Numbered from the stretch's first letter, positions 24,580-34,908 are shown. The stretch is DNA of 64,000 bases from Natrinema ejinorense (GCF_002494345.1 NZ_NXNI01000001.1:930001-994000); one strand, 5' to 3'. Translations and numbers: made by a program. Notes: generated by a model from the sequence alone, not told the origin.

Positions 24580-26925
24580 TTACCGGACCGAGTCGAGCAG
24601 GAGTTTCTGCTCGACGCGTTTGACTTCGTGTTGGACGTCGCGAACCGCGTCGATGTTCGCGGAGATGGAGCTGATACCCTCGTTGACGAGGAACTGGACC
24701 ATTTCCGGTTTGGAGCCGGCCTGGCCACAGATACTCGTATCGACGCCGCGTTCGCGGCAGGTTTCGATGACATCGCCGAGGAGTCGCAACACGGCCGGGT
24801 GGAGTTCGTCGAAGCGGTCGGCGACGTGCTCGTTGTTGCGATCGACCGCGAGCGTGTACTGGGTCAGATCGTTGGTTCCGAAGGAGGCGAAGTCGATGCC
24901 GGCGTCGGCCATCTCCTCGACGGAGAGCGCCGCAGCGGGGGTCTCGATCATGGCACCCCACTTGCGCTTCTCAGGGTCGATTCCCGCATCCTTCATGCAC
25001 TCTTTGGCCCGATAGATGTCTTCGGCGTCGTTGACCAGTGGGAGCATGATCTCGACGTTGTCGTACCCCAGCTCGTAGAGGCGGCGGAACGCCTCGAGTT
25101 CGTGGGCGAAGACGTCGGTGCGGTCGAGCGAGCGGCGGATGCCCCGGTAGCCGAGCATCGGGTTGTGTTCGTTGGGCTCGTCTTCGCCACCCTCGAGCTG
25201 GCGGAACTCGTCGGTGGGGGCGTCCAGGGTGCGCACGCGGACGGGGCGGGGGTAGAACTCGTCGGCGACGCCGCGGATACCTTCGACCAGTTCCGTGATG
25301 TAGGCATCCGTGCCGTTTTCGGCGATGAACTTCTCTGGCGTCTGGTTCAGCGAGAGGATCATGTGCTCCGTGCGGAGCAGGCCGACGCCGTCGGCACCCG
25401 TCGCGGCCGCGCGTTCGGCGGCTTCGGGAATGGAGACGTTGACCTTGACCTCGGTCGCGGTCATCGGTTTGACCGGCGACTGCGGGCGGACTTCCTCGAC
25501 GGGCTCGGTCTCCTCGTCGGGCTCGACCGTCGCTCCCTCGAGGACCGCGCCCTTGTCGCCGTCGAGCGTGACGACCTGGCCGTCCTGCAGGACGGTCGTG
25601 GCGTTGGTCGTCCCGACGATGGCTGGGACCCCCAGTTCCCGCGAGACGATGGCGGCGTGGCTGGTCATGCCGCCCTCGTCGGTGATGATTCCCGAGGCTC
25701 GTTTCATCGCGGGGACCATGTCGGGCATCGTCATCTCGGTGACGATGATGTCGCCCTCGCTGACCTTCGCCAGGTCGTCGAGCTTGGTGACGATCTTCGC
25801 CGGCCCGCTTACGGTGCCGGGGCTCGAGCCCAGTCCGTCGACGATGACCTCGCCCGAACCAACACTCGAGTCGGCGGTGGCACCGGCGGCACTGCTTCCA
25901 TCGGCGGTCTGGGCGCTGCCGCTGCCGTCGGTCAGCCCCTTCGTCGGGTCGACGCTGCCGGTCGCGTCGGCGGCGGTTTCGTCCTCGTCGATGGTGGTGA
26001 TCGGCCGGGACTGGAGCATGTAGACGTCGCCATCGACGATCGCCCACTCGACGTCCTGTGGTTCGCCGTAGTGGTCCTCGACGCGCTCGCCGAGGTCCAT
26101 CAGCGCGTCGATCTCGTCGTCGGAGATGACCCGCTGCGTTCGCTTCTCCTCGGGCACGTCGCGCTCGACGGTCTGCCCCGTTTCCTCGTCTTTCTCGTGC
26201 ATCACCTTCTTCTCGGCGATGGTGAGGTCCATCGACCTGTCTTCCCGGTCGATGACGTAGTTGTCCGGCGAGACGGCACCGGAGACGACGGCCTCGCCCA
26301 GGCCCCACGCCGCCTCGATGATCATCGTCGGATCGCCCGTCGAGGGGTGGCTCGTGAACATCACGCCGGATTTCTCGGCGTCGACCATCTGCTGGACGAC
26401 GACCGCGATGTTCACTGCCGAGTGGTCGAATCCCTGTTCCTGGCGGTAGTAGATCGCCCGCTGGGTGAATAGCGAGGCCCAACACTCCCGAACACGATTC
26501 AGCAGGTCTTCCTCGGTGACGTTGAGGAACGTCTCCTGTTGGCCCGCAAACGAGGCGTCGGGCAGGTCCTCGGCGGTCGCCGACGATCGGACGGCGACGA
26601 ACGCCTCGCCGTCGCCGACCTCACGGTAGCTCTCGAGGATCTCCTCGCGCAGTTCGTCGGGGAACGGCGTCTCGACGATGAGTTCCTGTGCGCGGTCGGC
26701 CGCGTCGGCCAACGCGGCCGAGTCGTCGACGTCGACGTCGACGGCGGCGAACAGTTCCTCGTCGATTTCGGCGTCCTCGATGAACCGCCGATACGTGCCG
26801 GCCGTTACGACGAATCCCGGTGGCACCGGTAACCCCGCACCCGTAAGCTCGCCCAGGGAAGCACCTTTGCCGCCGACCTGCTCGAGGTCGCCGGCACTGA
26901 TCTCGTCCAGCCAGAGTACAGCCAT
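24580..26925 (-). CDS. ppsA: phosphoenolpyruvate synthase
   Basis: A 781-residue PEP synthase converting pyruvate + ATP to PEP + AMP + Pi for gluconeogenesis. The N-terminal ATP-grasp domain (about 1-330) starts with LDEISAGDLEQVGGKGASLGEL. The swivelling phosphohistidine domain carries the catalytic His in GGMTSHAAIVSRELG, near residue 418. The C-terminal PEP-binding TIM barrel (from about 460) includes GLLRTEHM and FGTNDLTQYTLAVDRN. A Ser/Ala/Gly/Asp-rich linker of about 45 residues between the first two domains is longer than in bacterial enzymes. The gene stands alone. Confidence 0.95.
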   Translation of the reverse strand: MAVLWLDEISAGDLEQVGGKGASLGELTGAGLPVPPGFVVTAGTYRRFIEDAEIDEELFAAVDVDVDDSAALADAADRAQELIVETPFPDELREEILESYREVGDGEAFVAVRSSATAEDLPDASFAGQQETFLNVTEEDLLNRVRECWASLFTQRAIYYRQEQGFDHSAVNIAVVVQQMVDAEKSGVMFTSHPSTGDPTMIIEAAWGLGEAVVSGAVSPDNYVIDREDRSMDLTIAEKKVMHEKDEETGQTVERDVPEEKRTQRVISDDEIDALMDLGERVEDHYGEPQDVEWAIVDGDVYMLQSRPITTIDEDETAADATGSVDPTKGLTDGSGSAQTADGSSAAGATADSSVGSGEVIVDGLGSSPGTVSGPAKIVTKLDDLAKVSEGDIIVTEMTMPDMVPAMKRASGIITDEGGMTSHAAIVSRELGVPAIVGTTNATTVLQDGQVVTLDGDKGAVLEGATVEPDEETEPVEEVRPQSPVKPMTATEVKVNVSIPEAAERAAATGADGVGLLRTEHMILSLNQTPEKFIAENGTDAYITELVEGIRGVADEFYPRPVRVRTLDAPTDEFRQLEGGEDEPNEHNPMLGYRGIRRSLDRTDVFAHELEAFRRLYELGYDNVEIMLPLVNDAEDIYRAKECMKDAGIDPEKRKWGAMIETPAAALSVEEMADAGIDFASFGTNDLTQYTLAVDRNNEHVADRFDELHPAVLRLLGDVIETCRERGVDTSICGQAGSKPEMVQFLVNEGISSISANIDAVRDVQHEVKRVEQKLLLDSVR

Positions 26926-27082: not shown

Positions 27083-27982
27083 TCAGGCCTCCAGTATCTC
27101 GTCGTCGTCGCTATCGGGGACGACGAGCGACCCGTCGAGGACGGTCACGCCGCGGCCGCCGACCTGTACGGCTCCGTCGAGGCGAACCCGAACCTGGCCC
27201 GGCCGGTCGACGTAGTGGCCCTGCTCGAGTCGGAGCTCCGCGGGGAGATCGCCGTCGAAGGCGTCGAAGCGGTCGAGGTACGCGGCGGCGGCTCCGCTCG
27301 CGGTGCCGGTGACGGGGTCCTCCGGAACCCCCGCTCCCGGCGCAAACATGCGTCCGTGGACCGTCGATTCGGCCTCGAGTGCGTCGAAGGTGAACAGATA
27401 GATCCCGGTCGCATCGAGGTCGTCGGTGAGCGCCTCGATCGCGGTCAGGTCGGGTTCGGCCGCGCCGACGTCCGAGAGGTACGTGATCGGGACGATCAGA
27501 AACGGGAGCCCGGTCGACGCCACCGCGAGGGGCAGGTCGGCGCTGGCTCCTTCGAGGGCGGCCCGATCGACGCCCAGCGCGTCGGCGACGCGGTCGTAGC
27601 CGACGTCGACCTCGCGGATCGTCGGCTCGTCCTGTGTCATCCAGACCGTGCCGTCGCCCTCGAGTTCGATCTCGAGCGTGCCGACGTTCGTCTCGAGGGT
27701 CGTCGTCCCGGGCTCGAGACCCTCGTCGTGGAGGTGTGCGAACGTCCCGATCGTCGCGTGACCACAGAGATCGACCTCCTGCGTGGGCGTGAAGTATCTG
27801 ATTCGGCGGTCGGCGGTCTCGCTCGAGCGAAGGAAGGCGGTCTCGCTGACGGCCATCTCGGCGGCGATCGTCTGCATCTGCTCGCTCGAGAGTCCGTCCG
27901 CGTCCGGAACGACGCCGGCCGGGTTCCCGGTCAGCGGTTCGTCGGTGAAGGCATCGACCTGCAAGACCCGAATCGTCTCCAT
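27083..27982 (-). CDS. PhzF family isomerase-like protein
   Basis: A 299-residue diaminopimelate-epimerase-fold protein starting at ATG 27982 (METIRVLQVDAF). The catalytic glutamate of the family is Glu47 in VSETAFL, and the CGHATIG motif follows near 75-81. The PVTGTASG segment near 225-232 forms the second half of the active site. PhzF relatives isomerise dihydro-anthranilate-type compounds; outside phenazine clusters the substrate is unknown. The gene lies directly downstream of a decayed alpha/beta hydrolase, and a fragment of a second phzF copy is found at 30500-30590. Confidence 0.88.
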   Translation of the reverse strand: METIRVLQVDAFTDEPLTGNPAGVVPDADGLSSEQMQTIAAEMAVSETAFLRSSETADRRIRYFTPTQEVDLCGHATIGTFAHLHDEGLEPGTTTLETNVGTLEIELEGDGTVWMTQDEPTIREVDVGYDRVADALGVDRAALEGASADLPLAVASTGLPFLIVPITYLSDVGAAEPDLTAIEALTDDLDATGIYLFTFDALEAESTVHGRMFAPGAGVPEDPVTGTASGAAAAYLDRFDAFDGDLPAELRLEQGHYVDRPGQVRVRLDGAVQVGGRGVTVLDGSLVVPDSDDDEILEA

Positions 27983-28059
27983 ACAACGTGGGTCGTGCGA
28001 CCGGCGTATGAAACCTCGGTCGTCGCCACGATACCGGCGCTCGACCACGCCGGTCGCCG

Positions 28060-28485
28060 CTACCTACTCCCCTGCAGGCCGTCGATCCAAGCGACGAGAT
28101 CGTCGAGAACGGGTTGGTCAGGTCGTTCCGCAGTCGATATTCGAACCGGACGGTCCCTCGCCGGGCATAAACTGATGATTGAGTCCCCTCGTACTGCTCG
28201 AAGTCGGTGGTGTCGCACCCCTCGAGCGCCGCCTGCCACTGTTCGAAGTCGTCCCCGACGGTGACCCTGAAATCGCGGTCGCCCTGCTGGAACAACAAGG
28301 GATATCGATCGACTGGGCGGTCGCGACCTGTTCGTAGTCGTCGAGACTGTCCTAGAACGCGCCGGGGGGAGCCGAGAATGGTATCCGATGGATCGTGTCC
28401 CCGTTCCGAATCCGCTCGAGTCGGCCCGGATCGCCGCTCCTCTTCCGTTCGCCGTTGACGAATCGATCGCCGGCCTACGCGAATC
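28060..28485 (-). pseudogene. decayed copy of the DUF3887-alpha/beta-hydrolase gene
   Basis: Reading the minus strand in pieces recovers a homologue of the intact hydrolase at 30594-31931. RFVNGERKRSGDPGRLER (N-terminal domain) jumps directly into RIRNGDTIHR...APPGAF (C-terminal domain), so the whole catalytic core is deleted. A TAG at 28352-28354 replaces the tryptophan codon of AFWDSL. A frameshift near 28300 precedes FQQGDRDFRVTVGDDFEQW, and two more lie around YEGLNHQFMPG and VRFEYRLRNDL before the end QPVLDDLVAWIDGLQ. It stops 78 bp upstream of the phzF start. Confidence 0.85.
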
Positions 28486-28840
28486 GTCCTTGCGATCGGA
28501 TATGCAATGACGTTCAGTGACTCCTATAGTCGTCGTTCACTCCCTTGATGGCGACCTAGCTGTCGCCCAGAGCGTCGGCGATGTGCTCACAATCGACGTC
28601 GACCTTGCGGTACGCGGTTGCGCTTGCTGAATATGGCTTGCTCACGGGCGGGTCTAACACGGTTTGTGACCGTCCTGACGCACTGGTTTCTCTCAGGGCT
28701 GTCTATACTCAATACAGTTATCGATTGACAAAATACCTCGTAACACTCTTATTAGACAACTATATTTGATTCAAACCAAAATTTAAAACAATAAATTGAC
28801 CAAATATCGACCCTAGCTATAAGATATATTTAGCAATAAT
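28486..28840. other. AT-rich junction region
   Basis: No supported gene. GC falls sharply from about 28690 to 28860, unlike the flanks. A 62-codon plus-strand frame at 28581-28769 has no recognisable family. The segment forms the left edge of the AT-rich two-gene cargo. Confidence 0.5.
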
Positions 28841-28850
28841 ATAAAAATTT
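28841..28850 (+). promoter_or_regulatory. box A (TATA) of the exported-protein gene
   Basis: The string ataaaaattt lies about 30 bases before the ATG at 28878. A GGTGGA purine-rich Shine-Dalgarno-like element at about 28860-28864 gives a short leader with a plausible ribosome site. Confidence 0.45.
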
Positions 28851-28877
28851 AATCATCAGGGTGGATGACTACTGGCT

Positions 28878-29954
28878 ATGCCGATAGGAAATAGAAGCCG
28901 CCGTAAAGCACTGAAAATGTTCGGAACTGTTGCGATGGGAGGTATCCTGTCTCTCGGAGCAATCCCAGTCCAGGGAACGAAGGCTGTGAGTCGCCCTGTT
29001 CGGGCCAGAGGGATGCGTACCATTCGTCGGATCCCCCAAGAGAATGGATATATTCGAGAAGTCGAATTTAAGATTGAAGAAACAAATCCAATATCGGTTA
29101 ATTCGAAAGATGAATCAATTATAATGAGTACCGAATCCGGCAATTATAATCCTGAAGTCAGGCCAGGCAATACAGTTGACTTCGGGAAGGACGAACTGAA
29201 GATTGATAAAGAGATGTTCAAAGATACTGAACAAGCAGTCAAATCTCAGCGTTCGGGAAAGGATGAACCGGACGTGATTGAATATAAAGATACAGCAATC
29301 CTGGGGACTGTCGAGCAACACTATGCCCAGGAGATGCGGATGCGGGACGCACTTTTAGCCGCCGACTCTATCTCCTCGCAGGCAGAATCGAATCCGCTAC
29401 TTGCTGCAGATTGTTCGAAGTATACGTACAATGGGGACAACCCGTCTGATCGGGACGACCTTGCCGAGCGGACAGCACCGATTAATCTCGCATGGGATAA
29501 TGGAAAAGATGCGTCGGACATACAGGATGAGATGCAGGATGAAGGCTGGGGATCGCCGTGGCCATCCAGTGATAAATACATCTTCGAGGATGAAGACACG
29601 GTCAAGGCACAGGATGAACATATAAAAAGGAATATTCCCCCTAGTTCGGTACCGACCCAGTATCACGTCCGAGCCTATGATCTCTCCGGCGTTGACAATC
29701 TAGAGATTGTCGGTGCAGGTCACAGAGACCCGCCGGATCACAACCAGGGCTGCGAATGGGTCGGTATCGGCTGTGGTGTCAACTGGAGAGTATCAGAGAC
29801 ACGCGGGGAAGTATCGGACGAGTGGACAGACGTGAAAACAAAATACGCAGGAAACGCAAATATGGACTCTGCCTCCGGCAATTACGATTATATCGAGGGA
29901 GATATCAAAGACGATGGTGACAGTATCGGATGTCCTCCCTTCTGTCCGGTATAA
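28878..29954 (+). CDS. exported protein with possible LssY-C-like domain
   Basis: A 358-residue protein of unusually low GC. The N-terminus (NRSRRKALKMFGTVAMGGILSLGAIPVQG) is a Tat-like export signal without a lipobox. Residues about 30-160 are charged and repeat-poor. Residues about 190-300 have an order of motifs that reminds me of LssY-C domains: APINLAWDN, DIQDEMQDEGWG, then QYHVRAYDLSG and IVGAGHRDPPDHN. This similarity is pattern-based and unverified. Cysteines are few: CSKY, GCEWVGIGCG and the terminal CPPFCPV. It is followed by a membrane protein on the same strand; together they look like a transferred cargo. Confidence 0.6.
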   Translation: MPIGNRSRRKALKMFGTVAMGGILSLGAIPVQGTKAVSRPVRARGMRTIRRIPQENGYIREVEFKIEETNPISVNSKDESIIMSTESGNYNPEVRPGNTVDFGKDELKIDKEMFKDTEQAVKSQRSGKDEPDVIEYKDTAILGTVEQHYAQEMRMRDALLAADSISSQAESNPLLAADCSKYTYNGDNPSDRDDLAERTAPINLAWDNGKDASDIQDEMQDEGWGSPWPSSDKYIFEDEDTVKAQDEHIKRNIPPSSVPTQYHVRAYDLSGVDNLEIVGAGHRDPPDHNQGCEWVGIGCGVNWRVSETRGEVSDEWTDVKTKYAGNANMDSASGNYDYIEGDIKDDGDSIGCPPFCPV

Positions 29955-29992
29955 CGTAGCAACTATTTGCACGCCAGCAGTACTGAAATATT

Positions 29993-30499
29993 ATGCAGGG
30001 AAGTATTGACCCGGCCTTTGGGAGCAGGCCGGTTAATGCAGCCGTCTCGATCGTGCTCGCATCGGTTGCCCTTCTAGGACTGTATGTCCTTCAGAAGCGA
30101 GCCGACACACCGGAAGGTGGCGCTGCAGCCAGCAGCGTCTGGTACGTCATAATCTGTTCTGTGGTCTATCTTAGCCCGCGATATGTACATGATACGTTTG
30201 CATCCGGTGTCTTCAGGTTCCAGTATCTCCTCTGGGTCTTCACGATCGTCGTTCCGCTAGTGGCGCTTCAGGCCGGAGTCCCAGTGTACATTTTTGCAAC
30301 CCGTGGAAACGTGGGCGCGTTAGTCGGGTTGTTCGCTGCGACTACCCTCACGTTTTGGGGACTACTGGGAACAGGTGGCGAGTCGGACATCTTAGTTGGG
30401 TATCCCTACGCTATGTTTCCGGCCGCCGTCCTCATCATTTCAGTTACTACTGGCGTGGATGTCGCTACCCGCAAAGTGACAAAACGGGTTGGTACGTGA
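29993..30499 (+). CDS. five-helix membrane protein, partner of the exported protein
   Basis: A 168-residue integral membrane protein with about five helices (VSIVLASVALLGLYVL, VWYVIICSVVYLS, YLLWVFTIVVPLVAL, ALVGLFAATTLTFWGLLG and FPAAVLIISVTTGV). It begins 38 bp after the exported protein's stop, and the pair is likely co-transcribed. An immunity or anchoring role is conceivable given the context, but the sequence itself shows no such motif. Its last codons run straight into a fragment of a phzF copy, so its 3' end marks the right edge of the inserted cargo. Confidence 0.6.
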   Translation: MQGSIDPAFGSRPVNAAVSIVLASVALLGLYVLQKRADTPEGGAAASSVWYVIICSVVYLSPRYVHDTFASGVFRFQYLLWVFTIVVPLVALQAGVPVYIFATRGNVGALVGLFAATTLTFWGLLGTGGESDILVGYPYAMFPAAVLIISVTTGVDVATRKVTKRVGT

Positions 30500-30590
30500 G
30501 CCGCCGACCCGCACGCCATCCGCGAGCCGCACGCGAACCAGACCCGGGCGGTCGACGGAGTGCCCCTGCTCGAGTCGTGGCTCCCCGGTC
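30500..30590 (-). pseudogene. C-terminal fragment of a second phzF
   Basis: In one minus-strand frame this stretch reads LEQGHSVDRPGLVRVRLADG and then VRVGGS. That aligns with LEQGHYVDRPGQVRVRLDGA and VQVGGR near the C-terminus of the intact PhzF at 27083-27982. The DNA is visibly similar too. It starts four bases after the stop of the intact hydrolase, which reproduces the hydrolase-then-phzF order of the other copy. Everything upstream of the fragment is missing. Confidence 0.78.
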
Positions 30591-30593
30591 GGG

Positions 30594-31931
30594 CTACAGG
30601 TCGTCGATCCAGTCCACGAGATCGTCGACGACCCGCTCTGCGACGTTGTTCCGGACGGCGTACTCGAACTCCACCGACTCGCCGTCGCCCGGCATAAAGA
30701 GGTGATTGAGGCCGTCGTAGCTCTCGAACGTCGTCGCCGACCTGCCATCGAGTTCGGATCGCCACAGCTCGAGGTCGTCGGCCACGGTAACCTGGAAGTC
30801 GCGCTCGCCCTGGAGCAAGTATAGGGGAACGTCGACGTCCGCCGTGGTTCCCAGGTGGTCGTACGACCCGAGGCTGTCCCAGAACGCGCCCGGTTTGCCC
30901 AGGAGCATCTCGTCGGCCTCGTACTCGCCCGATCGAACGCGTTCGATCTCCGCCGACCAGGTTTCGAAGACCTGCTCGAGGTCGGCCCACTCGTGGTCGC
31001 CGACCGACACCTTGTATTCGAGTTGCTCGAGGGTGAGGTCGTGGTAGGGTCGTGCGGGTGCGGCGAGTCCGACGACGCCGGCGAGCTCGCCGTCTCGAGC
31101 GGCGATTCTGGGGGCTGCCCGGCCGCCGAGGCCGTGGCCGACGACGACGATCCGATCCGAATCGACTCCCTCGGTCGACCGAAGGCGATCGACCGCGACC
31201 AGCGCGTCGTCGACGGTGACGTGATCGAGGGTGTACGCACCGGGTTGGACCTCGCATGCGGGCACGCGCTTGTCGTACCGAAGGGACGCGATTCCCTGGG
31301 TCGCGAGCCCCTCGGCGAGATCCGTAAACAGCTGCGTTCCGCCGCGAGCGGTGTCGCCGGTCACTGGTCCGGAGTCGTGGATCAGGACGACGCCGGGAGC
31401 CTCGTCGGCGGTCGCAGAGGTGGTAACGGTCCCCGGCAGGGAACAGTCGTCGGCCGCGAGCGTCACGTCCTCGTCGGAGACCGCACTCGAGTCGACGTAG
31501 GACGGTCGTTCGTACTCGTCGGTGATCCCGCAGTCGAGGAGTCGCGACTCGCTGTCGACGATGACGCGGCAGTCGTGTTCACTCCGGGCAAACGCCAGCC
31601 GCAGATCGACCGCGTTGGCCTCGTCACCCGCCGTCACGTCCGTGCCGACGATGTCCTCGAACGCGCCCCCGATCGCAGTATAGGCCATCCAGAGTCGCTC
31701 GAGGCGGCCGGGATCGCCGTAGCGCTCTCGGTTACCCGAGACGAAACGCTCGCTTGCTTGCTCGAATCGATCGTTCGCGAGTTCCTCGACGAACGCCACC
31801 GCCGTCTCGTCGGCAGTCTCCGTCCCGGCGTCCTCGTCCGTCGTGTCGGAGAGTAGATCGGCACAGCCGGCCACTGCCGACGCTGTCGCCGTCGATACCG
31901 CCGCGAGTACGGTTCGTCGTCGGGGTGCCAT
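30594..31931 (-). CDS. Tat lipoprotein: DUF3887-like domain + alpha/beta hydrolase lacking the serine
   Basis: A 445-residue exported protein from ATG 31931. A Tat lipoprotein signal (RRRTVLAAVST...SAVAGC) is followed by a DUF3887-like helical domain (about 40-150). An alpha/beta-hydrolase domain of the BAAT/dienelactone type follows, with oxyanion region VVLIHDSGP. The nucleophile elbow reads VVGHGLGG, where Gly267 stands in place of the usual catalytic serine (GHSLGG). The acid (LLQGERDFQV) and histidine (YDGLNHLF) are retained. Unless another residue substitutes, it should not hydrolyse esters and may only bind ligand. A decayed paralogue lies at 28060-28485. Confidence 0.85.
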   Translation of the reverse strand: MAPRRRTVLAAVSTATASAVAGCADLLSDTTDEDAGTETADETAVAFVEELANDRFEQASERFVSGNRERYGDPGRLERLWMAYTAIGGAFEDIVGTDVTAGDEANAVDLRLAFARSEHDCRVIVDSESRLLDCGITDEYERPSYVDSSAVSDEDVTLAADDCSLPGTVTTSATADEAPGVVLIHDSGPVTGDTARGGTQLFTDLAEGLATQGIASLRYDKRVPACEVQPGAYTLDHVTVDDALVAVDRLRSTEGVDSDRIVVVGHGLGGRAAPRIAARDGELAGVVGLAAPARPYHDLTLEQLEYKVSVGDHEWADLEQVFETWSAEIERVRSGEYEADEMLLGKPGAFWDSLGSYDHLGTTADVDVPLYLLQGERDFQVTVADDLELWRSELDGRSATTFESYDGLNHLFMPGDGESVEFEYAVRNNVAERVVDDLVDWIDDL

Positions 31932-32016: not shown

Positions 32017-33462
32017 TCAGTCGTCTCCCGGTTCCTCGAGCGGATCCGTGTGATCGTGATCCGCCATCGGTGGGAGGTCACCCGACTCGTGCGTTCCGAC
32101 TGGGGGGCGGTTGACTTCCGCGGCGGGCGACGACTCGAGGTCGGTCCGTGCCTCACCCTCGATCGCCTCCATCTCGCCGTCCTCACGCGCATCCTGATCG
32201 ATCCGCATCGAGCAGAAGTCGGCCCCGCACATCGAGCAAAAGCGGGCCTCTTTGTAGTTGTCACCGGGCAGGGTCTGGTCGTGGAACGACCGGGCGCGGT
32301 CGGGGTCGAGCGCGAGATCGAACTGCTCGCGCCAGTCGAACTCGTAGCGGGCTTCCGAGAGCGCGTCGTCCCAGTCGCGCGCGCCGGGGCGTTCGTTGCC
32401 CACGTCGCCGGCGTGGGCGGCGATCCGGTACGCTGCGAGGCCGTCGCGAACGTCCTCCTCCTCGGGAAGGCCGAGGTGTTCCTTCGGCGTGACGTAACAC
32501 AGCATCGCCGCGCCGGCCTGGGCCGCCATCGCCGCACCGATGGCGCTCGTGATGTGGTCGTAACCCGGCGCGATGTCGGTCACCAGTGGACCGAGCACGT
32601 AGAAGGGAGCACCGTCGCAGACCTCCTGCTGGCGCTCGACGTTCTCGGCAACCTTGTGCATCGGTACGTGGCCCGGCCCTTCGACCATCACCTGAACGCC
32701 GTGATCCCAGCCCACCCGCGTGAGTTCCCCCAGGGTGTCGAGTTCGGCGTACTGGGCCTCGTCGCAGGCGTCGGCCAGACAGCCCGGTCGCAGACTGTCA
32801 CCGAGACTGAAGGTGACATCGTGCTCGGCGAAGATCTCACAGATTTCGTGGAAGACCTGATAGAACGGGTTCTGGTCGCCGTTTTCCTCCATCCACTTGG
32901 CCATGATCGACCCGCCCCGCGAGACGATGCCGGTCTTTCGCCCGTCGGTCAGCGGCAGGTGCTCGGCGAGGATCCCCGCGTGGATCGTCATGTAGTCGAC
33001 GCCCTGTTTCGCCTGTTTCTCGACGATCTCGAGCAGCAATTCTTTCGTGATATCCTCGGGACTACCCGCCTGCTTGACCGCCTCGTACAGGGGCACCGTC
33101 CCGAGCGGCACCGGCGAGTGATCGATGTGGGCTTCCCGGATCTCGTCGAGGTCGCTTCCGGTGCCGAGATCCATCACCGTGTCCGCGCCGTAGTGGACGG
33201 CGGTGTGGAGCTTCTCGAGTTCCGTCTCGAGGTCGCTGGTCGTCTCGCTGTTACCGATGTTGGCGTTGACCTTCGTCGCGAACTCGCGGCCGATGACCAT
33301 CGCGTCGAGGGCGTCGTGATTGACGTTAGCCGGAATGACGGCCTGCCCCTCGGCGACTTGCTCGCGGACGAACTCCGGATCGCGGTTCTCTCGTTCGGCG
33401 ACTCGCTCCATTTCGGCTGTCACCGTTCCCTCGCGGGCGGCCTGAATCTGTGTACGCGCCAT
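32017..33462 (-). CDS. thiC: phosphomethylpyrimidine synthase ThiC
   Basis: A 481-residue radical-SAM enzyme that rearranges aminoimidazole ribotide into the HMP-P pyrimidine of thiamine. The Fe-S motif CSMCGADFC (CX2CX4C) lies near residues 407-415, as expected close to the C-terminus. Conserved stretches such as [18 protein letters not shown] and [12 protein letters not shown] are present. The acidic C-terminal tail is haloarchaeal. The TATA box lies so close to the ATG that no room remains for a TPP riboswitch. No other thi gene is adjacent. Confidence 0.97.
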
Positions 33463-33615: not shown

Positions 33616-34908
33616 TCACTGCAGGGTTGCAACCGGGCCGCCACGAATTCGAAGCGTTACCGACTCCGTCGCGTCGTCGGGAATCGACACCGGAACCGAC
33701 ACCGTCGCTCGTCCCTGCGAACCGTCACGGGTCGCGATCGAAGTCGTCCGCCGCTCGTCGTCGATACCCAGCCAGTACTTCCCGGAATCGGCGGCAATCG
33801 TCGCCGAGACGCCGACGGTCTCACCCGGCCGCAGTTCCCCCTCGACGGTGAGCGATTCGAGGGTCAGCGACGGCTCGTGGAAGTCGACCTCGAGCGTGCG
33901 GTCCAGCGTCGTCCTGTAGACTGGCACCGCTTCCTCGTCGCCCGGCTCGGCGGTGAGTATCTCCACGCCCAGTTCGCGTTCGACGTTCGCGATCCGGTTA
34001 CAGATCGTCTGTCGGGAGGAGCCGGCAAAGAGGAGCCCGACGAGACCGCCGTCCTCGAGGAAGACCGCGGAGCCACTGTCGCCGGGTTCGGAGAGCGGGC
34101 CGGCGACGAGCTGGTCGCGGAACAGGATCGGCCCCTGCTCGCCGAACTCGACGCGGACGCTCGCGCTCGTCGCTTCGATCGCGGCGCTCGTGACGCCGGT
34201 CGTTCGACCCGTCTTCGTCACCGTTTCGCCCCGGAGGTCATCGTACCCCTCGCGTCGAATACCCGTCGGCCAGGCCTCGTCCAGCCCGGCGTACGTCACC
34301 GACTCCCGATCCGGCTCGACCGAGCGGGCGGCGACGTCGACGAGGCCCCCGTTCTCGACCGGGACGTAGCCGACGAGATCCCCGACCGTGTCGTCCGCGT
34401 CGCCACCGTCGGCCGGCGACGGCTGGAGAATGGATTCGCCGAACTCGGCGGCGTTCGAGCGAGCGTAGACGTGATTGTTCGACAGTCGGACGAGATCGCC
34501 GCTCTCGACGCTCTCTGCCCAGGTCGCGGCTCCGTCGATGGGGTCGTCGATCCGGGCCGGATACGGCCCGCCGGTTCCGGCCGTCGAGTCCGCGTTTATC
34601 TCGCTGACGCCAGCGGGGACGGGCCGATGGCGGCCCTGTCGGTCCTCTGCGGCCTCGGGCATCGGCTCGAGGGTCGACAGCGCGTCGAATCCCTCGCGCG
34701 TCTCGTCGTAGCCCGAGTCGACGACGCTGACGTCGACGTCGTCGCCGGCCGCAGCCACGCGTGTTTCGACGTCGTCCTCGTCGGCGAGGCAGTCTCGCGG
34801 CCGTTTTTGCGAGACGAAAACTGTCACCCGGTCTTCAGCCGAATCGTAGTCCACGCCGATCACGTTCTCGCATTCGAGGAGGTACTCGTAGTCTTGCGTA
34901 GAGGGCAT
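33616..34908 (-). CDS. trypsin-fold serine protease-like protein (Nal1-type)
   Basis: A 430-residue protein without a signal peptide. Residues about 5-90 form a small alpha/beta domain. A chymotrypsin-like double barrel follows. RLSNNHVYARSN (about 143-154) supplies the likely catalytic His, LVDVAARS the Asp region, and EPGDSGSAVFLEDGGLVGLLF (about 270-290) the Ser in GDSGS. Last comes a C-terminal immunoglobulin-like beta domain (LTVEGELRPGETVGVSATI). This resembles NNHV...GDSGS proteases related to plant Nal1 and bacterial trypsin-like peptidases that act inside cells. Substrate unknown. Confidence 0.75.
   Translation of the reverse strand: MPSTQDYEYLLECENVIGVDYDSAEDRVTVFVSQKRPRDCLADEDDVETRVAAAGDDVDVSVVDSGYDETREGFDALSTLEPMPEAAEDRQGRHRPVPAGVSEINADSTAGTGGPYPARIDDPIDGAATWAESVESGDLVRLSNNHVYARSNAAEFGESILQPSPADGGDADDTVGDLVGYVPVENGGLVDVAARSVEPDRESVTYAGLDEAWPTGIRREGYDDLRGETVTKTGRTTGVTSAAIEATSASVRVEFGEQGPILFRDQLVAGPLSEPGDSGSAVFLEDGGLVGLLFAGSSRQTICNRIANVERELGVEILTAEPGDEEAVPVYRTTLDRTLEVDFHEPSLTLESLTVEGELRPGETVGVSATIAADSGKYWLGIDDERRTTSIATRDGSQGRATVSVPVSIPDDATESVTLRIRGGPVATLQ

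Follow-up and report, generated by a model that had tools for sequence, protein, structure and literature searches.

Results

The locus between ppsA and thiC

The window, a 64,000-nucleotide stretch of Natrinema ejinorense DNA (930001-994000 of contig C1 of the 4.48-Mb haloarchaeal genome G000), carries two copies of a hydrolase gene, A and B, and several pieces of phzF, a gene for a PhzF-family isomerase (TIGR00654 and PF02567 above cutoff). From left to right the order is phzF, a ruined hydrolase A, half of an inverted-repeat element, a middle piece of phzF, two inserted genes (cargo 1 and cargo 2), a C-terminal scrap of phzF, an intact hydrolase B (hydB) and thiC (Table 1). The left flank is a gene that we take, from its recognised sequence, to be ppsA. 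Both hydrolase copies and every phzF piece are on the minus strand, that is, in direct orientation.

An earlier, sequence-only reading had described four of these features (intact phzF, ruined hydrolase, phzF scrap and intact hydrolase) and had explained them by tandem duplication of a hydrolase-phzF pair followed by complementary loss. All four were borne out by blastn and tblastn beyond chance: alignment of the fragments to the intact genes gave 68% and 75% identity for the two hydrolase blocks, and 82% (DNA) and 72% (protein) for the phzF scrap. The third phzF fragment, the half element and the A+T-richer two-gene insert had gone unmentioned. A whole-genome search found no additional copy of the hydrolase and no further copy of phzF in the window genome, and hence no closer match to either fragment at a distant locus, which rules out such a locus as their source.

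Table 1. Features of the locus (window coordinates; aa, amino acids)
Feature	Position	Strand	Evidence
ppsA (phosphoenolpyruvate synthase-like), bordering the ancestral block on the left	24580..26925	-	open reading frame; syntenic in 29/29 genus genomes
phzF, intact native copy	27083..27982	-	PF02567 E=1e-69; TIGR00654 234 bits vs cutoff 76
Pseudo-hydrolase A, C-terminal block (aa about 337-445), with frameshifts and an internal TAG	28072..28366	-	blastn 68% over 304 bp, E=3e-19
Pseudo-hydrolase A, N-terminal block (aa about 47-81)	28413..28486	-	blastn 75% over 75 bp, E=3e-7
Right half of the ~90-bp inverted-repeat (MITE-like) element	28491..28533	+	pattern search and aligned copies
Third phzF fragment (aa about 148-120)	28528..28611	-	gapless vs native phzF, score 36 vs shuffle maximum 14
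Cargo 1, secreted protein, twin-arginine-type signal, family unnamed	28878..29954	+	homologs 69-73% in N. altunense, N. pallidum and N. gari, same site
Cargo 2, small hydrophobic, probably membrane protein	29993..30499	+	homologs 76-81% adjoining cargo 1 in the same three species
phzF C-terminal scrap (aa 276-248)	30500..30588	-	DNA 82% over 90 bp, E=1e-19
Hydrolase B, intact reading frame, EstD-like alpha/beta hydrolase, Gly267	30594..31931	-	PF01738 E=3e-8; PF12146
thiC, right flank	32017..33462	-	PF01964 E=3e-187

The locus was compared across 29 congeneric (Natrinema) genomes. The order ppsA-phzF-hydrolase-thiC, with a single hydrolase, was found in at least 20 of the 29, so that the single pair proposed as ancestral is indeed seen in relatives. 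phzF was found in all 29; the hydrolase was missing from three genomes (G012, G017 and G020) and broken in another (G024). The insert is carried by five genomes, namely the window genome, a conspecific one (G061, listed under the window's own species), N. altunense AJ2 (G009), N. pallidum DSM 3751 (G001) and N. gari JCM 14663 (G014).

A duplication joint beside hydrolase A

In N. altunense, N. pallidum and N. gari the order is phzF, an intact hydrolase A, a tip of thiC fused to the middle of phzF, cargo 1 and cargo 2. We followed this fusion (joint J1) in N. altunense, where the match to the hydB-thiC boundary of the window is continuous from the hydrolase start via the intergenic region and the thiC stop codon and, ~25 bp into the thiC coding sequence, switches to phzF at codon ~148. 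About 5 bp, approximately TCGAG, are common to both sides at the switch. Equivalent thiC-tip/phzF joints lie beside copy A in N. pallidum and N. gari, and by its position the corresponding site of the window presumably derives from J1 as well. Since a thiC tip lies to the left of the phzF piece and full-length thiC to the right, a duplication is needed. Direct orientation and order, unduplicated relatives and a novel joint, the last present in these three species, are the marks of a tandem duplication. At J1, however, the phzF copy begins only at about aa 148, which means that at this boundary the gene was copied in part.

Each of the three species has one hydrolase genome-wide, at position A, and none at position B. 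thiC lies 350-530 bp beyond cargo 2 in N. gari and N. pallidum (in the latter the locus is split over two contigs), with no hydrolase B between, and N. altunense has a rearrangement to the right of the cargo; no hydrolase or phzF trace above noise was found to the right of the cargo in any of the three. In the window genome and in G061, position B is retained and A is lost. This retention of opposite hydrolase copies by related lineages would be the opposite resolution of one duplication.

Decay of hydrolase A and the inverted-repeat element

The remnant of hydrolase A in the window (best tblastn E=2e-15 against the intact hydrolase) has lost aa 1-46 and about 82-336, and carries one TAG in each block and several frameshifts. 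In G061, where the order is phzF, the tail of A, the last 64 aa of cargo 1, cargo 2, the scrap, hydrolase B and thiC, copy A was reduced to its tail by a different lesion, a large deletion that reaches into cargo 1 and unites two sites with a common GTCG(A/G)TAT. A 1-base deletion in the window's pseudo-A is absent from G061. As the two strains carry different lesions in A, decay went on after they split.

Copy A of the window is truncated at the half element, the left half of which is gone along with the 5′ end of A. The complete element is ~90 bp long, and its consensus ends, taken from aligned copies, read CTATAGTAGC..ACTGAAA and TTTCAGT..GCTACTATAG. Its core gave 36 matches at up to 2 mismatches in the window genome (none for a reversed-pattern control), and copies were present in 10 out of 10 other Natrinema genomes searched. 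As a short non-coding repeat with terminal inverted repeats and many copies, it looks like an unnamed miniature inverted-repeat transposable element (MITE). Rfam gave no match, and the papers searched included none on Natrinema duplications or Natrinema elements. Where B is missing, N. gari has a half copy and N. pallidum an apparently full copy of the element, suggesting that its insertions and deletions may have taken part in the hydrolase losses.

The phzF fragments and the two-gene insert

The third phzF fragment also aligns with N. altunense without gaps across 82 bp (score 36 vs shuffle maximum 13), and its counterpart in N. pallidum, left of the insert, covers aa 78-144. The adjoining stretch 28600-28760 has a match in the window only and none in the other genomes. 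The scrap on the right, the protein of which (aa 248-276) is identical to phzF in 72% of positions (E=2e-11), abuts the stop codon of cargo 2 directly (joint J2) and ends 5 bp from the stop codon of hydrolase B. It is found in G061 too, with an 11-bp deletion, and is missing from N. pallidum and N. gari.

The 1.6-kb insert between these fragments (28878-30499) consists of two intact genes on the strand opposite to the surrounding pair, with a G+C content of about 0.30-0.57 versus about 0.65-0.70 in the surroundings. Neither cargo protein had a match in Pfam or NCBIfam. A separation of about 2.6 kb between the intact phzF and the intact hydrolase, noted earlier, is present, and most of it is this insertion of unrelated genes, which also occurs in the three other species. 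A phzF fragment and both cargo genes occupy the equivalent site in four species. Between the groups the cargo proteins stand at 69-81% at the amino acid level, compared with 72-73% for the hydrolase (N. altunense, N. pallidum). The cargo is thus about as diverged as the hydrolase, which indicates that the arrangement is old and rules out a recent horizontal gain of the cargo common to the species. Distant homologs of cargo 1 occur elsewhere, other genera included, some of them in tandem (G043).

Hydrolase B lacks the nucleophile serine

Codon 267 of hydrolase B (31131-31133) encodes glycine in place of the catalytic serine, giving GHGLGG instead of GxSxG. The motif GHG(L/F)GG, which leaves the Ser-His-Asp triad without its serine, was found in 24 of 25 aligned Natrinema proteins, the window's included; GHSMGG was found only in N. 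gari. The N. gari hydrolase falls outside all other Natrinema copies (support 100/99); a divergent version seems to have replaced the original there. Esterase activity of hydrolase B is doubtful on this evidence, and the protein may be a pseudo-esterase throughout the genus. With glycine at the nucleophile position, the earlier claim of exactly one working copy of each gene is better put as one intact reading frame of each: the frames are there, but a working hydrolase is doubtful.

Beyond thiC, a gene resembling that of a trypsin-like protease (33616-34908) lies between thiC and a phosphoribosyltransferase-like gene in the window, G016 and G022. G011 has a remnant of it, and it is missing from G061 and most other genomes.

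Origin of the present arrangement

The history that we favour, with a probability of roughly 0.65, is a duplication followed by insertion of the cargo, opposite hydrolase losses and a second event. The ancestor common to the window species and the N. altunense/pallidum/gari group would have had ppsA-phzF-hydrolase-thiC. Illegitimate recombination at about 5 bp (TCGAG) would have fused the 3′-terminal ~25 bp of thiC with phzF at codon ~148, producing the tandem phzF-hydA-thiC tip/partial phzF-hydB-thiC, and two outside genes would then have come to adjoin the partial phzF. With two hydrolases present, either one would have been dispensable: the altunense group would have kept A and lost B entirely, while the window species would have kept B, its copy A decaying via deletions, frameshifts and the inverted-repeat element at the 5′ end. 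In the window lineage a second event would have connected the insert, at its end, with codon 276 of a phzF copy beside hydB. The sequences, the joints, the gene orders and the presence or absence of each piece are observed, whereas the succession of events, their single origin and what the second event was are inferred.

Several observations weigh against this history, at least in its simplest form. The phzF fragments are not colinear: codons 148-120 lie to the left of the insert (down to ~78 in N. pallidum) and 276-248 to the right, so that the colinear remnants expected from one event are not what the locus holds. A single duplication plus deletions is therefore insufficient, and a second recombination is required. 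Thus the outline proposed from the sequence alone, tandem duplication with complementary loss, stands (single pair, J1, opposite losses), but one clean event does not. In the window itself, any thiC tip is too eroded to be demonstrated, since the leftmost ~25 bp at the J1 site fit phzF no less well. No genome with both hydrolases intact was found. Common descent of the kept copies is questioned by the hydrolase tree, in which hydB of the window is not sister to copy A of N. altunense and N. pallidum (approximately unbiased (AU) test, p=2e-5) and copy A of N. gari lies outside the other Natrinema copies. The trees of ppsA (p=0.04) and phzF (p=0.07) speak weakly against a single clade of the five cargo carriers, which the RNA polymerase tree does not reject (AU p=0.37). 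These conflicts among the ppsA, phzF and hydB trees make between-species shuffling possible, and recombination between species may have moved pieces of the locus. The remnant of A does not discriminate: with 126 aa or 400 bp on a long branch, AU tests did not tell its grouping with N. gari from that with hydB or with N. altunense/pallidum (the tree of the 126-aa fragment includes one row, G052, in a wrong frame; G052 is excluded from the full-length hydrolase tree).

The second event was, in our view, most likely another slippage or tandem duplication involving repeats, with subsequent trimming. Three candidates, none of them singled out by the data, are another tandem duplication that later collapsed, import of phzF-hydrolase-thiC from another species and integration by one crossover. 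In its full form, import would mean that an ancestor resembling N. pallidum, with A only and the cargo adjoining thiC, received phzF-hydrolase-thiC from another Natrinema, through a crossover within thiC at one end and, at the other, an illegitimate join to the end of cargo 2, after which A would have been redundant and decayed. Such an import would account directly for J2, where the cargo 2 stop codon meets phzF codon 276, and recombination in thiC evidently occurs: the window thiC, 91% identical to that of G061, groups with G010/G027 (Shimodaira-Hasegawa-like approximate likelihood-ratio support 98), whereas G061 thiC groups with that of N. pallidum/gari (89), so that recombination into thiC of the window strain is probable. 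However, G061 carries J2 and hydB and yet has the other thiC, which makes the thiC exchange a separate, later event. Moreover, hydrolase B groups only with its conspecific copy, among the expected Natrinema lineages and with no donor, and no donor emerged for the scrap either, which resembles phzF from many species about equally well. We regard import as unlikely.

Still less probable is a circular DNA, bearing part of phzF (about codons 76-276) as well as the cargo, that integrated by one crossover into a phzF copy and later eroded. It predicts the middle of phzF to the left of the cargo and the C-terminus to the right, as found, and the limits fit, the left fragment of N. pallidum covering aa 78-144 and the right fragment starting at 276. 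However, in N. pallidum and N. gari the sequence beyond the cargo 2 stop codon is unrelated to phzF, so that the predicted right joint is missing there, and the duplicated thiC tip is left unexplained; we know of no such cargo-phzF circle. That nothing was duplicated, and that the fragments resemble the genes by chance or come from unrelated ones, might be suspected given the many short spurious repeats of high-G+C haloarchaeal coding DNA, but is refuted by the alignments (E-values from 1e-19 to 1e-7), by their correct order and strand, by the single genome locus and by the conservation of the arrangement in relatives.

Discussion

Duplication joints are seldom readable after species divergence; here the joint, the insertion and the opposite losses can be traced in five genomes of one genus, showing how small tandem duplications arise, acquire foreign genes and resolve differently in haloarchaea. 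We would only tentatively go further and see in the locus opposite resolutions of one ancestral esterase duplication in two haloarchaeal lineages, with joint, insert and element-marked deletions still legible and hydrolase versions still being swapped (Ser-to-Gly genus-wide, a divergent intact-serine version in N. gari). If true, losses of this opposite kind would turn the locus into a small barrier to, or a hot spot for, between-species recombination. A biochemist may find a better lead in the catalytic serine that the kept hydrolase has lost across the genus.

As in known tandem duplications by illegitimate recombination followed by pseudogenisation, the copies have the same direct orientation, the novel joint has about 5 bp shared, and one copy is decaying. 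The present case differs in three ways: the joint lies at the equivalent site in four species, two inserted genes lie within, and the phzF fragments do not follow the order of the gene. Divergent resolution, or reciprocal gene loss, is usually discussed for whole-genome duplications in eukaryotes, as it is in the papers retrieved on it. Here, too, related lineages retain opposite copies, but of one gene, in haloarchaea and in two sampled lineages. Hydrolase B resembles EstD-type esterases (NF041096) over aa 39-444, but with 263 bits it remains below the family cutoff of 600 and outside the family, and has glycine for the nucleophile serine. Like a MITE, the element is short (about 90 bp), ends in inverted repeats, occurs in dozens of copies and has no coding sequence, although at the window site only half of one copy is left. 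In comparison with these systems, the locus is a well-preserved case of ordinary duplication and decay; it is no new kind of system, and its mechanism is the textbook one.

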